Part shown: in pieces, positions 47,942-57,946 of the stretch
Numbering within the stretch: position 1 is the first letter of the stretch
Layout of the letters: every line of letters begins with the position of its first letter
Source of the DNA: Beijerinckiaceae bacterium
GTDB lineage: Bacteria; Pseudomonadota; Alphaproteobacteria; Rhizobiales; Beijerinckiaceae
Length of the DNA stretch: 64,000 nucleotides
NCBI GenBank assembly: GCA_030684835.1
Contig: JAUXWZ010000132.1
Span: 43,361 to 107,360 of the forward strand
Reading direction: 5' to 3'
Translations under genes and position numbers: made by a program
Notes under the pieces: model-generated
The model's database searches: none
What the model saw: only the letters and a program-made list of their open reading frames with translations
Told to the model about the DNA's origin: nothing

Positions 47942-48238
47942 TCAGGCCGCCTGAGCTTCCTTGACCTTTTTGATGATGTCGCGGCGCAGAACCTTGATGT
48001 TCTGCGACAGCTCATCTTCACGAGCCTTGATCAGGAACGCGTCAAGGCCGCCGCGATGCTCCACGGAGCGCAGTGCGTGGGCGCTGATGCGCATGCGCAC
48101 GGAACGGCCAAGCGCATCGGAGATGAGCGTGACCTTGCACAGGTTCGGCAAGAACCGGGTGCGCGTCTTGTGGTTAGAATGGCTGACGAGGTTGCCCGAC
48201 TGAACAGCCTTGCCGGTAAGTTCGCAACGGCGGGACAT
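47942..48238 (-). CDS. rpmB: 50S ribosomal protein L28
   Basis: [33 protein letters not shown]. Confidence 0.97.
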
Positions 48239-48455
48239 AATGCTTCCTTTTAGACCTCTTCGGCGCCCCTCGCGGGGCGACCCGAACAGCTCTCGTTTGA
48301 GAATTGGTTCTCTACAGGACACAGGCTGGCGAAAGCATAAGCCACCGCCGCGCGTCGGACCGTCGAGCGGGATGCGGTTCTTTAGTGGAGAGCCCCGCCG
48401 CCGTCAAGTGAGAGGGCTTGCGCGCCACCCTTTACCAGGCCCCAACCCCAAGCCG

Positions 48456-49193
48456 TTAAATCTTCAATTTCTTGAAAATCCCCTCCGGGATCGACCCGAT
48501 CACGCCCATCACCAGGCGCCAGATCGGCTTGGTGTAGATCACGTTCGCGCCCTTCTCGTAGGCGGCGAAAATCCGGTCGGCCGCCGCCTCGGGCGTGGCG
48601 GTGAGGGCGGGTGGCAGCTTCATGCCTTCGGTCATGCGCGTGGCGACAAATCCCGGCTTCACCGTCATCACGTGCACGCCTGTCTTGGCGAGCCGGTTGC
48701 GCAGACCCGACAAAAACGCCGTGAACCCGGCCTTGGCGGAGCCGTATACATAATTGGTGGCCCGGCCGCGATCCCCCGCGACGGAGCTGACGCCGATAAT
48801 CGTACCCGCTCTGCGCACTTCAAAGGCGTTGGCGATCACGCCAAGGATCGTGGCGGGCCCCTCGAAATTGGCGCGCATCACGCCCACGGCGGCCTCAAGA
48901 TCAGTCTCGTTGGTGCGCTGGTCGCCCAGTAAGCCAACGACGCAGACCGCGACATAAGGCAGCTTCGGCAGACTGGCGACGAAAGCCTCGTGCGCGTGGA
49001 ACGCCAGCGCATCAAACGCATGCAGCGTGACCGTGACGTTGTAGCGCACCTCCAGGTCGGCCCTGGCGCGTTCCAGATCTTCGGGCCGGCGCGCAGCGAG
49101 CTGTACGTCGAACCCCTCTTTCGCGAAACGATGGGCGATGGCGAGCCCCATGTCGGAAGCGCCGCCCAGTACAAGAATCGATCCCTTACTCAA
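48456..49193 (-). CDS. SDR family reductase, DprE2-like (decaprenylphospho-2-keto-ribose reductase)
   Basis: ILVLGGASDMGLAIAHRFAKEGFDVQLAARRPEDLERARADLEVRY; YGSAKAGFTAFLSGLRNRL; operon context with DprE1-like. Confidence 0.85.
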   Translation of the reverse strand: MSKGSILVLGGASDMGLAIAHRFAKEGFDVQLAARRPEDLERARADLEVRYNVTVTLHAFDALAFHAHEAFVASLPKLPYVAVCVVGLLGDQRTNETDLEAAVGVMRANFEGPATILGVIANAFEVRRAGTIIGVSSVAGDRGRATNYVYGSAKAGFTAFLSGLRNRLAKTGVHVMTVKPGFVATRMTEGMKLPPALTATPEAAADRIFAAYEKGANVIYTKPIWRLVMGVIGSIPEGIFKKLKI

Positions 49194-50530
49194 AGCCCGA
49201 GCCTTTCCGATTGGATGGATGTGAACGTTTGATCGAGTCCGTGCTCCGATCGCATGGCGCGGAAATCGGCCACGCGCGGATCGGACATCTCGAATATCGC
49301 CCGCGACAGGCGCGAATCCTTGGCCAGATAGAAGCGCCCGCCATGGGCTAACGTAATGGCGTCGAGCCGCTCCATCAGCGCAAGCGCCTTGGGGTGCGCG
49401 GGAAAGTCGAGCGCCAGCGTGTACCCTTCCATGGGAAATGAGAAGCGGCTGTCCTGCGCGCCCATGCGCTTAAGTACGGCGAGAAAAGACCCGTGCCCGG
49501 AGGCGGATATCACCGCGAGCAATTCTTCAAGCCCGGTGCGCGAAGCCGCCAGCGGCAGCACGCACTGGAACTGCGCGAAGCCGCGCTTGCCATAAATGCG
49601 GTTCCACTGGTGGATGGAGTCGAGCGGATAGAAATAGCTGTCCCAATCCACAAGCGTCTCGCGCCCGCCGCGCGATCCCTTCAGCCAGTAGAGCGCGTTG
49701 AACGCGCCCACGGTCCATTGATTGAGCGCCCATCCCGGGGCGTCGAAAGGCGTGATCAGCGCGCGCCGCGCGGGCGTAACGAACGGCGCAGGGCGCCGGG
49801 CGACATCGAGTTCGTCAGCCAGCGCGTGTTCGCCCAGCAGCACAATTGAGCGACCAAGGTTGGCGCCACTGGCGAGGCAATCGATCCAGGCGACAGAATA
49901 AGTTGACTCGGCGTTGTCTTCGAACGCGCTCATGGCGGCGGCGAGATTGGGCGCAGGAATACTGCGTTGGCGCAGCCATCCGCTCTCCACGCGCCGCAAG
50001 CGGATGGCGGCGCGCAAAATGACGCCCGTAAGTCCCATGCCGCCCAGCGTCCAGGCGAACAGGTCGGCGTTTTCAGCACGCGAACAACGGCGGATCACAC
50101 CGTCACGCCCGACAACATCGATCCACTCGACGCAGCCGCCGAACGAGCCGTCCTTGTGATGGTTTTTGCCATGCACATCAGCGGCGATGGCGCCGCCCAG
50201 CGTGACGAATTTCGTGCCCGGCGTAACGGACACAAACCATCCGCGCGGCAGAAACACGCTGATGACATCAGCCAGCGTGACGCCTGATTCAGCGACAAGC
50301 AGGCCGCGCTGCGCATCGAAAGAAAGCATGTGCGCAAACGCCGTCATGCTCACGGTCGCGTGCGTGTTGAGCGCGCTGTCGCCGTAAGAACGCCCAAGGC
50401 CCCGCGCAATGGCGGGCGCATTTGCGGTCGTTTTCGCAAGCGCTGCAAGCAAATCCGATTGCGTGCGCGGGCGAAGCACGTTGCAATCTGCAACGGGAAA
50501 GCGACCCCATCCTGACAGGCGCATGATCAC
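49190..50530 (-). CDS. FAD-binding oxidoreductase, DprE1-like (decaprenylphosphoryl-ribose 2-epimerase oxidase)
   Basis: ARGLGRSYGDSALNTHATVSMTAFAHMLSFDAQRGLLVAESGVTLADVISVFLPRGWFVSVTPGTKFVTLGGAIAADVHGKNHHKDGSFGGCVEWID. Confidence 0.9.
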   Translation of the reverse strand: MIMRLSGWGRFPVADCNVLRPRTQSDLLAALAKTTANAPAIARGLGRSYGDSALNTHATVSMTAFAHMLSFDAQRGLLVAESGVTLADVISVFLPRGWFVSVTPGTKFVTLGGAIAADVHGKNHHKDGSFGGCVEWIDVVGRDGVIRRCSRAENADLFAWTLGGMGLTGVILRAAIRLRRVESGWLRQRSIPAPNLAAAMSAFEDNAESTYSVAWIDCLASGANLGRSIVLLGEHALADELDVARRPAPFVTPARRALITPFDAPGWALNQWTVGAFNALYWLKGSRGGRETLVDWDSYFYPLDSIHQWNRIYGKRGFAQFQCVLPLAASRTGLEELLAVISASGHGSFLAVLKRMGAQDSRFSFPMEGYTLALDFPAHPKALALMERLDAITLAHGGRFYLAKDSRLSRAIFEMSDPRVADFRAMRSEHGLDQTFTSIQSERLGL

Positions 50531-50943
50531 CTCGCCCGATTGGAAGGCGTGAAGACGAAGCGGCGATCGAGTTCGTACTTGACGACATAACCGATGGCGA
50601 GACCGATCACGGCGCCCAGTTCGCGCATCATGTCAGTGCGCCAGACATACCAGAACCCCGTTTCGAAACCCCAGAAGATCAACGTCGTGACGACGCCCAT
50701 GGCGGTGTAGCGCGAGAACTGCTTGCCATGCGCCGCAGCGCCGCTCGATGCGTCATAGAAAATCCATTTCTTGTCGAGTACATACTTCACGACAAGCCCC
50801 GCGCCAGTGCCCACAAAAATCGCTGCCGCCAGTTCGCCCGGCATGTCGAGCAACGCAAGCACGATGCGTTGTGCGCCCAGATTGGCGAGCGTTGCGATTG
50901 CAGCAAAAGCCGCGTAGCGAACGGCGATCTGTGCGCGTGTCAT
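50527..50943 (-). CDS. GtrA family membrane protein
   Basis: RYAAFAAIATLANLGAQRIV; LVVKYVLDKKWIFYD; IGYVVKYELDRRFVFTPS. Confidence 0.88.
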   Translation of the reverse strand: MTRAQIAVRYAAFAAIATLANLGAQRIVLALLDMPGELAAAIFVGTGAGLVVKYVLDKKWIFYDASSGAAAHGKQFSRYTAMGVVTTLIFWGFETGFWYVWRTDMMRELGAVIGLAIGYVVKYELDRRFVFTPSNRAR

Positions 50944-50951
50944 CGGCGGCC

Positions 50952-52241
50952 TCACCACCATGTCGCCGCGGCCAGCGCTATGACAATGACGACGCCGCAG
51001 ACGTGGCTGATGCGGTCGCGCAGCGCGAAAACAATAGGATCGTCGTGCATTTCGCCGCGATGGGCGATCATGACAACCCGGCTGATCCAGTAAAGCAGCA
51101 CAGCGCACACCACCCACAAAATTTCCGGCGTCGCATAAAGCCCGGCAACCGTCGTGGCGTTGAGATACAGCGCCAGAACGAGCACTGCGACATAGCCTGC
51201 AGCGACGCTCATCATCTCCACAATAGGCAGATCGACAACCCGGTAGCCGCGTCCGGCCGGCTTGTCGCGTCCCGATTGCAAATTGTCGACGAGTTCCGTC
51301 TGTCGCTTGATGGCGGCCAGCGACAGGAAGATGAAAATCGAAAACGCGAGCAGCCAGACTGAGAGCACGATGCCCGTGGCCGCAGCGCCGGCGACGATGC
51401 GCAACGTGTAGAGCGCCGCCAGCACGCAGACGTCGAGGATCGGCTCGCGTTTCAAACGCAGCGAATAGACGGTCGTCAAAATAGTATATCCGCATAGCGC
51501 CGCGACAAATTGCGACCCGGCAAAAAGCGCCAGCCCGAGCCCCGCGACAAGACAAACCAGGGCTAGTACGCCGGCATGCGCAAGCGGAACGGCGCCCGAC
51601 GCCATGGGCCTGAATCGCTTGCGTGGGTGCGCGCGGTCGGACGACAGGTCGAGGAGATCGTTGAGGATATAAACGCTGGACGCCACAAGACAGAATGCGG
51701 CGAAAGCGATGAGGGTAAGCGCCAGCGTTTGAAAATCGAATCGGTGCGCCGCGATCATCGGCAGGAACACCAGCAGGTTCTTGACCCATTGATGCGGGCG
51801 CAGCGCCTTTATGTAAGGCGCTATCCCACCCGTAGGCGCAGCCGACGCCCCGGCAACATATTCTACGCCTGCCCCGTCAAAACGCGACGCAAGCCACGCG
51901 GCGCGGTCAGCGCCGGCAGGCGCATCGCCCACCGCCTCATCGACGATATCCAGCGCATCTGCAAAGCGGCGCGCGAGTTCGTCCGGCGCGTGCGTGACCA
52001 GCACAACACGCCGGCCCGCCGCGCGCGCGTCGCGCATAGCTTCAACCACAGCAGCAGTCATGGGGAGCTTTGCCAGATCGGCAGCGCTGGCGTGCCGTAA
52101 GTAGCTCGTCGCCTTCGGCGCGCCGGAAAGCAGCGTGCGCCACCCGCCATCGCCCAGCACACGCCAAAATTCCTCACGCGCCAGGTCGGTCCGCAGCAAG
52201 CTGGTATCAAGATCGACAATCAGGGGCTTGACGTGTGACAT
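50952..52241 (-). CDS. UbiA family prenyltransferase with N-terminal HAD-like domain (decaprenyl-phosphate phosphoribosyltransferase-like)
   Basis: YIKALRPHQWVKNLLVFLP; VYILNDLLDLSSDRAHPRKRFRPMASG (NDxxDxxxD); multiple TM segments. Confidence 0.9.
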   Translation of the reverse strand: MSHVKPLIVDLDTSLLRTDLAREEFWRVLGDGGWRTLLSGAPKATSYLRHASAADLAKLPMTAAVVEAMRDARAAGRRVVLVTHAPDELARRFADALDIVDEAVGDAPAGADRAAWLASRFDGAGVEYVAGASAAPTGGIAPYIKALRPHQWVKNLLVFLPMIAAHRFDFQTLALTLIAFAAFCLVASSVYILNDLLDLSSDRAHPRKRFRPMASGAVPLAHAGVLALVCLVAGLGLALFAGSQFVAALCGYTILTTVYSLRLKREPILDVCVLAALYTLRIVAGAAATGIVLSVWLLAFSIFIFLSLAAIKRQTELVDNLQSGRDKPAGRGYRVVDLPIVEMMSVAAGYVAVLVLALYLNATTVAGLYATPEILWVVCAVLLYWISRVVMIAHRGEMHDDPIVFALRDRISHVCGVVIVIALAAATWW

Positions 52242-52459: not shown

Positions 52460-52621
52460 TTAAAGTCGGGGACGCGCCCGGGAGGGAATGTCCTTCATGT
52501 TGCGCCCTCTGGCTCGCGTCCAGCCATTAAAGTGTCGGATTTCGCCCTCACTGATGCTACCTTCATTTCGCGTGGTGAATTCCGCGTGGTGATTTTGGAT
52601 CCCATCCTCATGGATTGCCCA

Positions 52622-53503
52622 ATGACCCGTCCAACGATTTGGTCCCTGACCGGTAATCCGACAAACATTTTGCGGCGCATGGCGATTGCCGGCGCGCTGG
52701 CGACAGGCCCTCTTGCCGCTGTGACCTTCGCGCCCAGCTCTGCGGCCGCGGCTGATTCGCTGAAGGTTGGCTATTCCATCCGGCTGCTGGGCCTGTCCAT
52801 GGGCTCCGCCGGACTGAACGCGACACTCAGCCCTTCAAGCTACAATATGGAGATCTCCGCGCAGCTCTCCGGCCTGGCTTCCGTTGTTTCACGGGCGCAG
52901 GGAGGCGCGCGGTCCAGCGGGTCCATCGAACAGGGGCGCGTCATGTCGCGCACCTATGCGACGGCATCATCCAACAGCAAGGAAACGCGCACGGTCCGCA
53001 TGGCGCTCAATTCGGGCGCGGTGCGCTCGGTGGAGGTGTCGCCCCCGCTCGATCCCCATCCTGACCGCGTACCCGTGACCGACGCCCACAAGCGCGGCGT
53101 TATCGACCCCCTGAGCGCCCTCGTCATGCCGGTGGCGGGTCGCGAACTCATTGGCCCCGCGTCGTGCGAACGCACCATTCCCATTTTCGACGGCTACGCG
53201 CGGTTTGATGTCACGCTCTCCTACGCCGGAACGCAGCAGGTCCGCTCGGCGGCCTACACGGGCCCCGTGGCTGTTTGCAAGGCGCGGTACAAGGCTATTG
53301 CCGGCCATCGCGCCAATCGCAAGCAGACGAATTACATGGAAAATAATCGCCAGATAGAAGTCTGGCTGATGCCGGTCGAAGGCGCGCGGGTTGTCACGCC
53401 CTACAAAATCGCACTGGCCACTCAAATCGGACAGCTCGTCATCGAGGCGACGAGAGTGTCGGTGGCGTCAACCGGCGGCGGTTCCCAGAGCGCCTCTCGC
53501 TAA
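52622..53503 (+). CDS. DUF3108 domain-containing protein
   Basis: VGYSIRLLGLSMGSAGLNATLSPSSYNMEISAQLSGLASVVS; RFDVTLSYAGTQQVRS...GPVAVCKARYKAIAGHR. Confidence 0.8.
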   Translation: MTRPTIWSLTGNPTNILRRMAIAGALATGPLAAVTFAPSSAAAADSLKVGYSIRLLGLSMGSAGLNATLSPSSYNMEISAQLSGLASVVSRAQGGARSSGSIEQGRVMSRTYATASSNSKETRTVRMALNSGAVRSVEVSPPLDPHPDRVPVTDAHKRGVIDPLSALVMPVAGRELIGPASCERTIPIFDGYARFDVTLSYAGTQQVRSAAYTGPVAVCKARYKAIAGHRANRKQTNYMENNRQIEVWLMPVEGARVVTPYKIALATQIGQLVIEATRVSVASTGGGSQSASR

Positions 53504-54310: not shown

Positions 54311-57300
54311 ATGAACCCATTTTCACCCGCCTCGTCGGCGGGTCAGAGCCCGGCCCCGGCGCGGCCCGTGGGCGCGGTGCTCGGTCCCACAAACACCGGC
54401 AAGACACATCTCGCCATTGAGCGCATGCTTGGTCATTCGAGCGGCGTCATCGGCCTGCCGCTGCGCCTGCTGGCTCGGGAGGTCTACAACAAGGTCGTCG
54501 CGCGCGTCGGGGCGGATCAGGTCGCTCTCATCACCGGTGAGGAAAAGATCAAGCCGCGCAACGCGCGGTACTGGATCGCAACCGTTGAAGCCATGCCCCG
54601 CGATCTCGACGTCGCCTTTGTGGCGGTGGACGAAATCCAGCTCGCAGCCGACCTTGACCGTGGCCACACTTTCACTGACCGGCTTCTGAACCGTCGCGGC
54701 CGCGATGAAACGATGATGATCGGCGCCGCCACCATCGCGCCCGCGCTCGAACGGCTCTTGCCCAACGTGACGTTTGTGTCGCGGCCGCGCCTCTCCAATC
54801 TCACCTTCGTGGGCGAGCATAAGCTGTCGCGCCTACCCCGGCGCAGCGCCATTGTGGCCTTTTCGGCGGAGGAAGTTTACGCCATCGCCGAGTTGATCCG
54901 CCGCCAACGCGGCGGCGCCGCCGTGGTGCTGGGGGCCCTGTCGCCGCGCACACGCAACGCGCAGGTTGCGATGTATCAAGCTGGCGAGGTCGATTTCATC
55001 GTCGCGACCGACGCTATCGGCATGGGGCTCAATCTCGATGTGGATCATGTCGCCTTCGCCAGCGACCGGAAATTCGACGGCTGGCAATACCGCCGCCTCA
55101 ACCCCGCGGAATTCGCCCAGATTGCAGGCCGCGCGGGCCGCCACGCCAATGACGGCACGTTTGGCACGACAGGCCGCTGCCCCCCCTTCGAGGAAGAACT
55201 GGTCGAGGCGCTGGAGACGCACCGCTTCGACACAGTGTCGACCCTGCAATGGCGAAACGCCGATCTCGATTTCTCCACCATCGACAGTCTTCAAAACACG
55301 CTGGAACGCGAGCCTGGGCGCCCCGGATTGACCCGCGCGCCGCTCAACGAAGACATGATCGTGCTGGATATTCTCTCGCGCGACCCCCGCGTAAGGCGCA
55401 TCGCAGCCACCAAAGCCGACGTCCAAAGGCTGTGGGAGGCGTGCCAGGTGCCAGATTATCGCAAGGTGTCACCCTCCGCACACGCCGAACTGGTGGACAC
55501 GCTTTACGGGTTCGTCGTGCGCGCCGGACGGGTGCCAGACGACTGGTTTGCCAAGCAATTGCAGGCCTGCGACCGCACCACAGGGGACATCGACGCCCTG
55601 TCGGCGCGCATCGCGCAGGTGCGTACCTACAACTTCATTGCCAATCGTCCCGACTGGCTGAGTGATCCCGAGCATTGGCAGGGCGTCACGCGTCAGGTAG
55701 AGGACAACCTGTCCGACGCTCTGCACGAGAGATTGACCCACAGGTTCGTGGACAGGCGAACCAGCGTGCTCATGCGCCGATTAAGAGAGAATGCGATGCT
55801 CGAAGCGGAAATTACAGCGGCGGGAGACGTCCTCGTCGAAGGACAGCATATCGGTCTCCTGCACGGTTTCCGATTTACACCGGACCCTCAGGCTGAAGGC
55901 GAGGCGCAGCGCACGCTGAACGCCGCCGCGTTGAAGGCGCTGGCGAACGAACTTGAAGGCCGCGCTCAGAGGGTGAGCGACGCCGTCGATCAGGCGTTCG
56001 TGCTGGCCCATGACGGCGTCATGCGCTGGCTTGGCGAGCCCGTGGGCAAACTCAGCTCCGGCGATCACATCCTCAAGCCGCGCGTGCGTGTGCTTTCCGA
56101 CGATCAACTGCCCGCAGCGTCGCTGGAACTTGTGCAGCGCCGGCTCAATCTGTGGATTGATCAGCATGTAAAGAAACTGCTGGGGCCGTTGCTTGATCTT
56201 GAAAGTGGCGAAGGCCTTGAGGGCATCGCGCGCGGCGTCGCGTTTCAGGTTGGCGAATCGCTTGGCGTGCTGGAGCGCTCCAAGGTCGCCAACGATATCA
56301 AGTCGCTTGATCAGAACGCGCGCGGCGCGCTGCGCAAGCTGGGCGTGCGCTTTGGCGCCCATCACATCTACGTTCAGCCCCTGCTGAAGCCTGCGCCCCG
56401 GGCGTTGGCTGCGCAATTGTGGGCGCTCAAGCACGGCGGTCTAGAGGTCGTGAAGGGCTTCGACGAAGTGCCCCATCTGGCGGCATCCGGTCGCACCTCC
56501 TTTGCGGCCGACAAGGAAGCGCCGCGCGGGCTCTATCTGGCCGCCGGTTTCCGCGTCTGCGGCGAGCGCGTCGTTCGCGTCGACATTCTCGAAAGACTGG
56601 CCGATCTCATACGCCCCGCCATCGCCTATCGTCCTGGCGTCACTCCCGGCGAGCCCCCGGCGGGCGCAGCCGACGGCGACGGGTTCGTCGTCACGGTCGC
56701 CATGACCTCGCTGGTCGGCTGTTCGGGCGAGGCCTTCGCCTCGATCCTAAAGTCGCTCGGCTATGGGTCGGAGAAGCGCAAGGGCCCGGCGATCACCGTG
56801 CCGCTCGTCGCCGCCGCCGCGACCACGCCCATCATCGCCTCGCCCGCAGCGGACACCAAGGCGGAAAGCGCTGACGAAGCGACGACAGATTCCAGCGCTT
56901 CAGAAGAAACAACCAGCGAGGTGACAGCCGAACCTCAAGCTGCTGCAGAAGCAGCGCCTGCGGCGGAGACGCCCACGGAAGCCGCCGTAGAGAGCGAAAG
57001 CCAGGCAGAAGCTGCTGCGCCAGAGGTTGAGGCGCCTTTGGCCGAGCCGGAAGCGCCTGCAGCCGAGCCGGAAGCGCCTGCAACCGAGCCGGAAGCGCCT
57101 GCGGCTGAGACGGAAGCGCCTGCGACCGAGCCGGAAGCGCCTGCAGCCGAGCCAGAAGCGCCTGCGGCTGAGACGGAAGCGCCTGCGGCTGAAGTCGCCG
57201 CGAGCGATCAGGCCGTGAGCGAAGACGCTGGCGAGGCCATCACCCAAGCGTCCGGCCCGGACGTTGTTGAAGCCTCGGGCGAACCTGCAACAGAAGACGA

Positions 57301-57946
57301 AAACCTGATCGACGTCTGGCGTCCGCAACGCCAGCAGCAGCATCGTCGCCCGCAGGGACGCGATCAGCAACGCCGCGGCGGCGGCGGAGGCGGTGGGCGC
57401 GACCGAAGCCAATTCAACCGCAATCGTCCGCAGCAGGGCGAAAACGCTCCAGTCCAGGGAGCGCCTGTCGAAGGCGCGCCAGCGGCCGAAGGTGCGTCAA
57501 CTCCGGCGACGCAAGATCGCCCACAGGGAAACCGCCCCCAGGGCGAGCGTCCTCACGGCGAGCGTCCTCAGGGCGCCCGTCCTCAGGGGGATCGCCCGCA
57601 AGGTGAGCGTCCGCAAGGCGACCGCCCGCCCCGCAGGGACAACCGCAATAACGATAATCGCCGGAACGAAGGCGCTGGTCAGCGCCCAGGCGGCCCGCGT
57701 CCCCCACGCCGAGATGACCGGCCCGGGCAGCGTCATGGCGGCCCAGGGGAGCGCTCCGGCGAGCGGTCAGGCGGTCAGCGCCAGTTCGCATCGAGTGAAG
57801 CCCCGCGCCGCGAGCGCGAGAAGCAGCCCGATCCCAATTCGCCTTTCGCAAAACTGCTGGCGCTCAAACAGCAGCTTGAAGGCAAAAGCCCGGTGAACAA
57901 AGGCTCTGGGGAAAAAGCCCCGGGAGACAAGAAGAGCGGCGATTGA
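54311..57946 (+). CDS. SUV3-like DExH RNA helicase with long repetitive disordered C-terminus
   Basis: GAVLGPTNTGKTHLAIERML; VDEIQLAADLDRGHTFTDRLL; ATDAIGMGLNLDVDHVAF; QIAGRAGRHANDGTFGTTG. Confidence 0.93.
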   Translation: MNPFSPASSAGQSPAPARPVGAVLGPTNTGKTHLAIERMLGHSSGVIGLPLRLLAREVYNKVVARVGADQVALITGEEKIKPRNARYWIATVEAMPRDLDVAFVAVDEIQLAADLDRGHTFTDRLLNRRGRDETMMIGAATIAPALERLLPNVTFVSRPRLSNLTFVGEHKLSRLPRRSAIVAFSAEEVYAIAELIRRQRGGAAVVLGALSPRTRNAQVAMYQAGEVDFIVATDAIGMGLNLDVDHVAFASDRKFDGWQYRRLNPAEFAQIAGRAGRHANDGTFGTTGRCPPFEEELVEALETHRFDTVSTLQWRNADLDFSTIDSLQNTLEREPGRPGLTRAPLNEDMIVLDILSRDPRVRRIAATKADVQRLWEACQVPDYRKVSPSAHAELVDTLYGFVVRAGRVPDDWFAKQLQACDRTTGDIDALSARIAQVRTYNFIANRPDWLSDPEHWQGVTRQVEDNLSDALHERLTHRFVDRRTSVLMRRLRENAMLEAEITAAGDVLVEGQHIGLLHGFRFTPDPQAEGEAQRTLNAAALKALANELEGRAQRVSDAVDQAFVLAHDGVMRWLGEPVGKLSSGDHILKPRVRVLSDDQLPAASLELVQRRLNLWIDQHVKKLLGPLLDLESGEGLEGIARGVAFQVGESLGVLERSKVANDIKSLDQNARGALRKLGVRFGAHHIYVQPLLKPAPRALAAQLWALKHGGLEVVKGFDEVPHLAASGRTSFAADKEAPRGLYLAAGFRVCGERVVRVDILERLADLIRPAIAYRPGVTPGEPPAGAADGDGFVVTVAMTSLVGCSGEAFASILKSLGYGSEKRKGPAITVPLVAAAATTPIIASPAADTKAESADEATTDSSASEETTSEVTAEPQAAAEAAPAAETPTEAAVESESQAEAAAPEVEAPLAEPEAPAAEPEAPATEPEAPAAETEAPATEPEAPAAEPEAPAAETEAPAAEVAASDQAVSEDAGEAITQASGPDVVEASGEPATEDENLIDVWRPQRQQQHRRPQGRDQQRRGGGGGGGRDRSQFNRNRPQQGENAPVQGAPVEGAPAAEGASTPATQDRPQGNRPQGERPHGERPQGARPQGDRPQGERPQGDRPPRRDNRNNDNRRNEGAGQRPGGPRPPRRDDRPGQRHGGPGERSGERSGGQRQFASSEAPRREREKQPDPNSPFAKLLALKQQLEGKSPVNKGSGEKAPGDKKSGD
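57041..57190 (+). repeat. about seven 21-bp coding tandem repeats (EPEAPAA-type)
   Basis: gccgagccggaagcgcctgca-type units in tandem. Confidence 0.9.
57536..57632 (+). repeat. 15-bp coding repeats (G-E/D/A-R-P-Q/H)
   Basis: GERPHGERPQGARPQGDRPQGERPQGDRPP encoded in-frame. Confidence 0.85.

Follow-up and report, generated by a model that had tools for sequence, protein, structure and literature searches.

Gene content of the cassette

The window analyzed here is a stretch of 64,000 nt from a Beijerinckiaceae bacterium (GCA_030684835.1, contig JAUXWZ010000132.1, positions 43,361–107,360 of the forward strand). It carries, on the minus strand, a cassette of four genes at positions 48456–52241 that encode, in order, a HAD-UbiA fusion protein, a GtrA-family protein, a DprE1-like FAD oxidase and a DprE2-like short-chain dehydrogenase/reductase (SDR), and that are predicted to supply a lipid-linked D-arabinofuranose (Araf) donor (Table 1). 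An earlier note on this DNA had given the extent of the cassette and its four minus-strand genes exactly. The gene junctions, described there as 4–8 bp, all three measure as 4-bp overlaps.

The transferase domain of the fusion protein matches Pfam UbiA (5e-28), and the protein passes the NCBIfam model PRK08238 (476 bits; cut-off, 351). The best solved relative of the domain in a PDB sequence search is the Mycobacterium DPPR synthase, a phosphoribosyl pyrophosphate (PRPP) transferase (8j8j, 6e-31). The same structure is the first Foldseek match of an AlphaFold2 model of the window protein (pLDDT 92; E 2e-10, TM-score 0.82 on target), and the homology to mycobacterial DPPR synthase (Rv3806c) claimed in the earlier note is thus borne out both by sequence and by fold. 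The UbiA motifs NDxxDxxxDRxHPxKRxRP and KRxxE are retained. The next protein in the cassette matches Pfam GtrA_DPMS_TM (1.6e-10) and NCBIfam gtrA_1 (183 bits).

The two oxidoreductases match Pfam FAD_binding_4 (2e-18) and adh_short (3e-30), respectively. Their top PDB matches are the M. tuberculosis enzymes that had been named as their homologs: DprE1 for the oxidase (1e-81, with cytokinin dehydrogenase as the next family at 8.8e-8) and DprE2 for the SDR (8e-32, with the next family at 3e-18). The oxidase is 37.7% identical to M. tuberculosis DprE1, and the active-site check that had been proposed for it finds the key catalytic residues retained, with equivalents of Y60, G117, H132, K134, W230, R325, Q334, Q336, K367 and K418 all present. 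Substitutions are found at C387 (Ala), N385 (Thr), Y314 (Phe) and C129 (Ala). Cys387 of DprE1 is the residue attacked by covalent benzothiazinones, and because this position is Ala in the window enzyme, the sequence predicts that it should be insensitive to these compounds.

Conservation and selection

Scanning named genomes yielded 80 loci, and in 67 of them the flanking sequence is long enough for a test of gene order. Of these, 36 have the order UbiA–GtrA–DprE1–DprE2, mainly in Rhodobacterales and other alphaproteobacteria. The nearest locus is that of a Beijerinckiaceae metagenome-assembled genome (L024; 89% DprE1 identity), and the cassette occupies the same site between rpmB and the DUF3108 gene, with no additional gene there, both in L024 and in a same-genus species (G001; 71% DprE1 identity to the window). 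In a DprE1 tree, the window sequence groups with those of L024 and G001, followed by Frigidibacter and Novosphingobium, and the mycobacterial enzyme lies well outside.

Between the window and L024, the ratio of nonsynonymous to synonymous substitution rates (dN/dS) is 0.115 for DprE1, 0.124 for DprE2, 0.136 for GtrA and 0.150 for the UbiA domain, from which it follows that the cassette is maintained by purifying selection. Among 61 genomes (the own genome and its relatives), all 11 that have a DprE1-like gene also have a PRPP-type UbiA gene (Fisher p 3e-9, uncorrected for relatedness).

A degenerate phosphatase domain

The earlier note had listed a plain UbiA-family transferase, overlooking a degenerate HAD domain at the N-terminus of this protein that matches Pfam HAD with 27.0 bits, exactly equal to the cut-off. 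All six HAD catalytic residues are intact in 34 of 44 aligned HAD-UbiA fusions. In the window protein, the DxD of motif I and the Thr of motif II are present, and the motif III Lys and the GDxxxD of motif IV are lost; the L024 protein has the same pattern. The domain is also altered in Novosphingobium (L028) and in G001, where the alignment of the HAD region is uncertain. The dN/dS for the HAD domain between the window and L024 is 0.292, compared with 0.115–0.150 in the rest of the cassette, indicating that selection on this part of the protein is relaxed. Having lost Lys from motif III and the Asp residues from motif IV, the cassette HAD would leave removal of the 5-phosphate to be provided from elsewhere, and a phosphatase acting in trans would be the simplest reading of these sequences. 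A second HAD-UbiA protein encoded in the own genome, on contig C74, was considered as the supplier of this activity and rejected: its motif I DxD has become GxC (DLD to GLC), and it is absent from G001 and from the closest relative, G061.

The loss of HAD motifs III and IV, together with the lack of a fifth gene, could also be taken to mean that the cassette is a decaying relic whose function disappeared after loss of its transferase gene and phosphatase. We consider this very unlikely, because dN/dS is 0.12–0.15 for UbiA, GtrA, DprE1 and DprE2 in the comparison with L024, G001 still has both site and cassette at a DprE1 identity of 71%, and NoeC, which belongs to working noe operons, has no HAD at all.

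Comparison with noe operons and other known systems

The noeC-N-H-O-P operon of Rhizobium sp. IRBG74, a strain filed under Agrobacterium pusense, is the decisive parallel. On the symbiosis plasmids of this strain and of Sinorhizobium alkalisoli, genes for a UbiA protein, a GtrA protein, an FAD oxidase, an SDR and a hypothetical protein stand beside nod genes, and these are noeC-N-H-O-P. The window proteins are 47.6% (NoeC), 49.6% (NoeN), 59.5% (NoeH) and 56.6% (NoeO) identical to those of IRBG74. The first four genes, their order and their short overlaps are common to the window cassette and the noeC-N-H-O-P operons of Azorhizobium caulinodans, IRBG74 and S. alkalisoli; the noe parallel drawn in the earlier note therefore stands, and at 48–60% identity it is closer than the mycobacterial one. 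The systems differ in that the noe operon continues after noeO with the transferase gene noeP and adjoins nod genes, whereas the window cassette has no noeP and lies between rpmB and the DUF3108 gene.

A HAD domain is missing altogether from NoeC of IRBG74 and is degenerate in the window protein, so that neither protein contains a working fused phosphatase. Since this NoeC belongs to a functional operon, a cassette lacking a fused phosphatase can work in vivo. Deletion of noeP in IRBG74 abolishes all arabinosylated Nod factors, and deletion of noeN lowers arabinosylation of the lipochitooligosaccharides (PMC5080398). The product of noeN has been suggested as the missing phosphatase (PMC5080398), which is unlikely given that the position of noeN corresponds to a gene whose annotation is that of a GtrA-family membrane protein. 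We also note that a GtrA-family identity, assigned by position, of IRBG74 noeN (L172, 6588–7010) suits a flippase role and the partial phenotype of the mutant.

Azorhizobium noeCHOP was linked earlier to the mycobacterial route (PMC2443382), and DprE1/E2 homologs occur in O-antigen Araf loci (PMC11127046). With DprE1/E2-type cassettes already known from alphaproteobacteria (PMC2443382, PMC5080398) and from O-antigen loci (PMC11127046), the presentation of the window cassette as a surprise in the earlier note is weak; the idea has precedents in Azorhizobium, in rhizobia and in O-antigen systems. New here are the loss of HAD motifs III and IV, the absence of a fifth, GT-C gene and the presence of a second, unlinked HAD-UbiA gene with a broken HAD and a GT-C-like triplet.

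The mycobacterial decaprenyl-phosphoryl-arabinose pathway, which serves the cell wall (Rv3806c, Rv3807c, DprE1, DprE2 and Rv3789, with AftA-D/Emb), has a homologous PRPP transferase, oxidase, reductase and GtrA-family partner, but DprE1 identity is 38%, the HAD fusion is absent in mycobacteria, C387 is Ala in the window and the window cassette has no Emb/Aft neighbors. The carrier lipid is presumably undecaprenyl, unlike that of mycobacteria. The three-component pentofuranose systems (Citrobacter O1/O2 ORF15-ORF14-GT136 and the DprE1/E2 O-antigen loci; PMC11127046) share the logic of a HAD-UbiA protein making polyprenyl-phosphoryl-ribose, epimerizing enzymes, a flippase and a GT-C enzyme. Citrobacter ORF15 has an active HAD phosphatase and the predicted flippase is of the MATE family, whereas the window has a broken HAD, a GtrA partner and no linked GT-C gene. 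An active fused HAD is not a feature of every system of the three-component type.

Candidate transferases

In many relatives, a gene for a membrane protein, whose family varies from locus to locus, begins where dprE2 ends or sits between gtrA and dprE1. The gene in this transferase position in Novosphingobium (L028) is a GT87. For the cassette-linked protein of L033, nearly all of the 27 best PDB matches of a low-confidence structural model (pLDDT 66) are GT-C enzymes, including AftD, AftA and Emb (E 1e-3 to 0.6), which provides weak support for a GT-C assignment. The earlier note was correct that no arabinosyltransferase gene adjoins the window cassette, and the genome-wide GT-C search that it proposed finds candidate transferases elsewhere in the genome.

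Four GT87 genes are present on three contigs of the own genome. On contig C74 (L117, 6640–13355), the second HAD-UbiA gene (525 aa), which is unlinked to the window cassette and broken in HAD motif I, is followed by three tandem GT-C-like paralogs that are 38–42% identical to one another and match no Pfam family. A GT87 gene is adjacent, and there is no DprE1/E2 at the locus. Contamination is an unlikely source of this contig (GC content 0.613 versus 0.633 for the window, tetranucleotide r 0.96). Distant relatives of the C74 GT-C proteins are encoded immediately next to DprE1-like genes in six genomes of the same genus (G003, G012, G019, G021, G023 and G030), and the C74-type GT-C co-occurs with DprE1 (p 6e-6 in the set of 61 genomes, where related genomes are not independent). 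Judged from these sequences, the best candidates in the own genome would be the C74 triplet first and the GT87 genes second.

GT87 as the partner transferase of the cassette was set aside: G001 and G061 have the cassette and no GT87, and GT87 does not co-occur significantly with DprE1 (p 0.07). The GT-C families A2 and A3, which neighbor other cassettes, are absent from the own genome, with A3 found in G001 only, and the own genome has no PMT_2-type GT-C. The GT-C profiles had no matches in sequence searches of the PDB, and NoeP has no clear similarity to the candidate transferases. In G001, an unlinked, stand-alone GT-C-like gene on contig C79 (L166, 8332–9930) encodes a protein with 44% identity over 496 aa to one from Heliomarina (L047), whose gene lies inside the cassette, between gtrA and dprE1. 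The G001 protein is also related to the GT-C of the Cereibacter cassette (L174, 4835–5998).

The DprE1-like genes of the six same-genus genomes belong to three-gene operons (L133, 6765–11129, and L134–L138) that encode a HAD-UbiA protein with a degenerate HAD, a DprE1-like oxidase and a GT-C-like protein. These oxidases form a separate clade, and neither DprE2 nor GtrA adjoins them. An oxidase without a reductase could produce a keto-sugar donor, or an SDR could be borrowed from elsewhere.

A related question is whether the window cassette makes the same lipid donor by a route that stops at, or is diverted to, another pentofuranose (ribofuranose or a 2-keto intermediate) rather than D-arabinose. 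GT-C enzymes can take various pentofuranoses, with Rib, Xyl or Ara being provided by related loci (PMC11127046); the three-gene operons have no DprE2 neighbor, and the C74 locus combines a HAD-UbiA gene with GT-C genes and no DprE1/E2. The window cassette, however, has both DprE1 and DprE2, in overlapping genes under strong selection, like the noe operons tied to D-arabinofuranosylation (PMC5080398), and a product other than D-arabinose is unlikely.

A proposed route to arabinofuranose transfer

Homology, conserved residues, gene order, selection and co-occurrence are established by the analysis, and the pathway reading that they give is well supported. The cassette is very probably a donor-supply unit of the noeCNHO type that operates within a full route to Araf transfer; the lipid-linked D-arabinofuranose donor proposed in the earlier note agrees with the homologies, the residues and the gene order. 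We infer the substrates and the later steps of this route as follows. The 5-phosphate left by the predicted phosphoribosyltransferase would be removed by a phosphatase encoded elsewhere, and the DprE1-like oxidase and DprE2-like reductase would then invert C2 to give polyprenyl-phosphoryl-D-arabinofuranose. The GtrA protein may help to present this lipid at the periplasmic face; there, a GT-C enzyme not linked to the cassette would move Araf onto a glycan acceptor.

Several observations weigh against this assignment. The dephosphorylation step has no gene assigned to it; the surroundings of the cassette contain no GT-C gene in the window, in L024 or in G001; and G061 lacks both the C74-type GT-C and GT87, which implies that the transferase differs across the lineage. 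In addition, the matches to the NCBIfam equivalog models for DprE1 (2e-120, 403 bits) and DprE2 (9e-60, 202 bits) fall under the curated cut-offs of 500 and 250. Such scores could be taken to favor a general FAD oxidase and SDR from an unrelated pathway that merely adjoin a UbiA gene. That explanation is hardly credible, because DprE1 and DprE2 are the best solved relatives by a wide margin (1e-81 versus 8.8e-8 and 8e-32 versus 3e-18), and the residues, gene order and co-occurrence all agree with them.

The overall picture for the noeCNHO-type cassette is one of a constant donor supply with interchangeable transferases. A broader proposal, which we regard as doubtful, is that the repeated loss of HAD function in this lineage (in the window, at C74 and in the DprE1-only operons) reflects one shared, separate phosphatase or a 5-phosphorylated donor, that the cassette might serve several unlinked GT-C enzymes as a free-standing source of donor and that the DprE1-only operons might deliver a non-arabinose sugar.

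The assignment extends the set of predicted D-arabinofuranose producers by a Beijerinckiaceae-like alphaproteobacterial lineage, and suggests that one conserved four-gene donor cassette pairs with many different transferases. The C74 triplet, GT87 and the G001/Heliomarina/Cereibacter GT-C proteins are candidates for new arabinosyltransferase families. A phosphatase step with no assigned gene is common to the window cassette and the noe operons. The DprE1 proteins of these bacteria, with Ala at position 387, are also predicted to resist covalent tuberculosis drugs.

Flanking genes

The cassette is set among housekeeping genes overall. Beyond rpmB lie cobT, a HAD-II gene and cobS (Pfam CobT and CobS), and the DUF3108 side continues with genes for an AHSA1-domain protein and a helicase of the Suv3 type. 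No nod genes are among these flanks (rpmB, cobT, cobS, DUF3108, helicase); the rest of the genome was not searched for nod.

Table 1. Positions in the window of the cassette genes, the HAD domain and the two adjoining genes
Feature	Positions	Strand	Remarks
HAD-UbiA fusion (NoeC/Rv3806c-like)	50952–52241	−	429 aa; predicted polyprenyl-phosphate 5-phosphoribosyltransferase, residues ~140–429; degenerate N-terminal HAD, ~1–135
Degenerate HAD phosphatase domain	51837–52241	−	Alignment of 44 HAD-UbiA fusions; dN/dS 0.29
GtrA-family small membrane protein (NoeN/Rv3789-like), putative flippase or transferase partner	50527–50955	−	142 aa
DprE1/NoeH-like FAD oxidase, predicted substrate polyprenyl-phosphoryl-ribose	49190–50530	−	446 aa
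DprE2/NoeO-like SDR reductase	48456–49193	−	245 aa
DUF3108 gene (flank only, one side)	52532–53503	+	Pfam DUF3108 2e-20
rpmB, ribosomal protein L28 (flank only, other side)	47942–48322	−	Pfam Ribosomal_L28 1.8e-24

The Suv3-type helicase (54311–57946) has a long, low-complexity C-terminal tail made up of Ala/Pro/Glu repeats and stretches rich in Arg, Gly and Gln.

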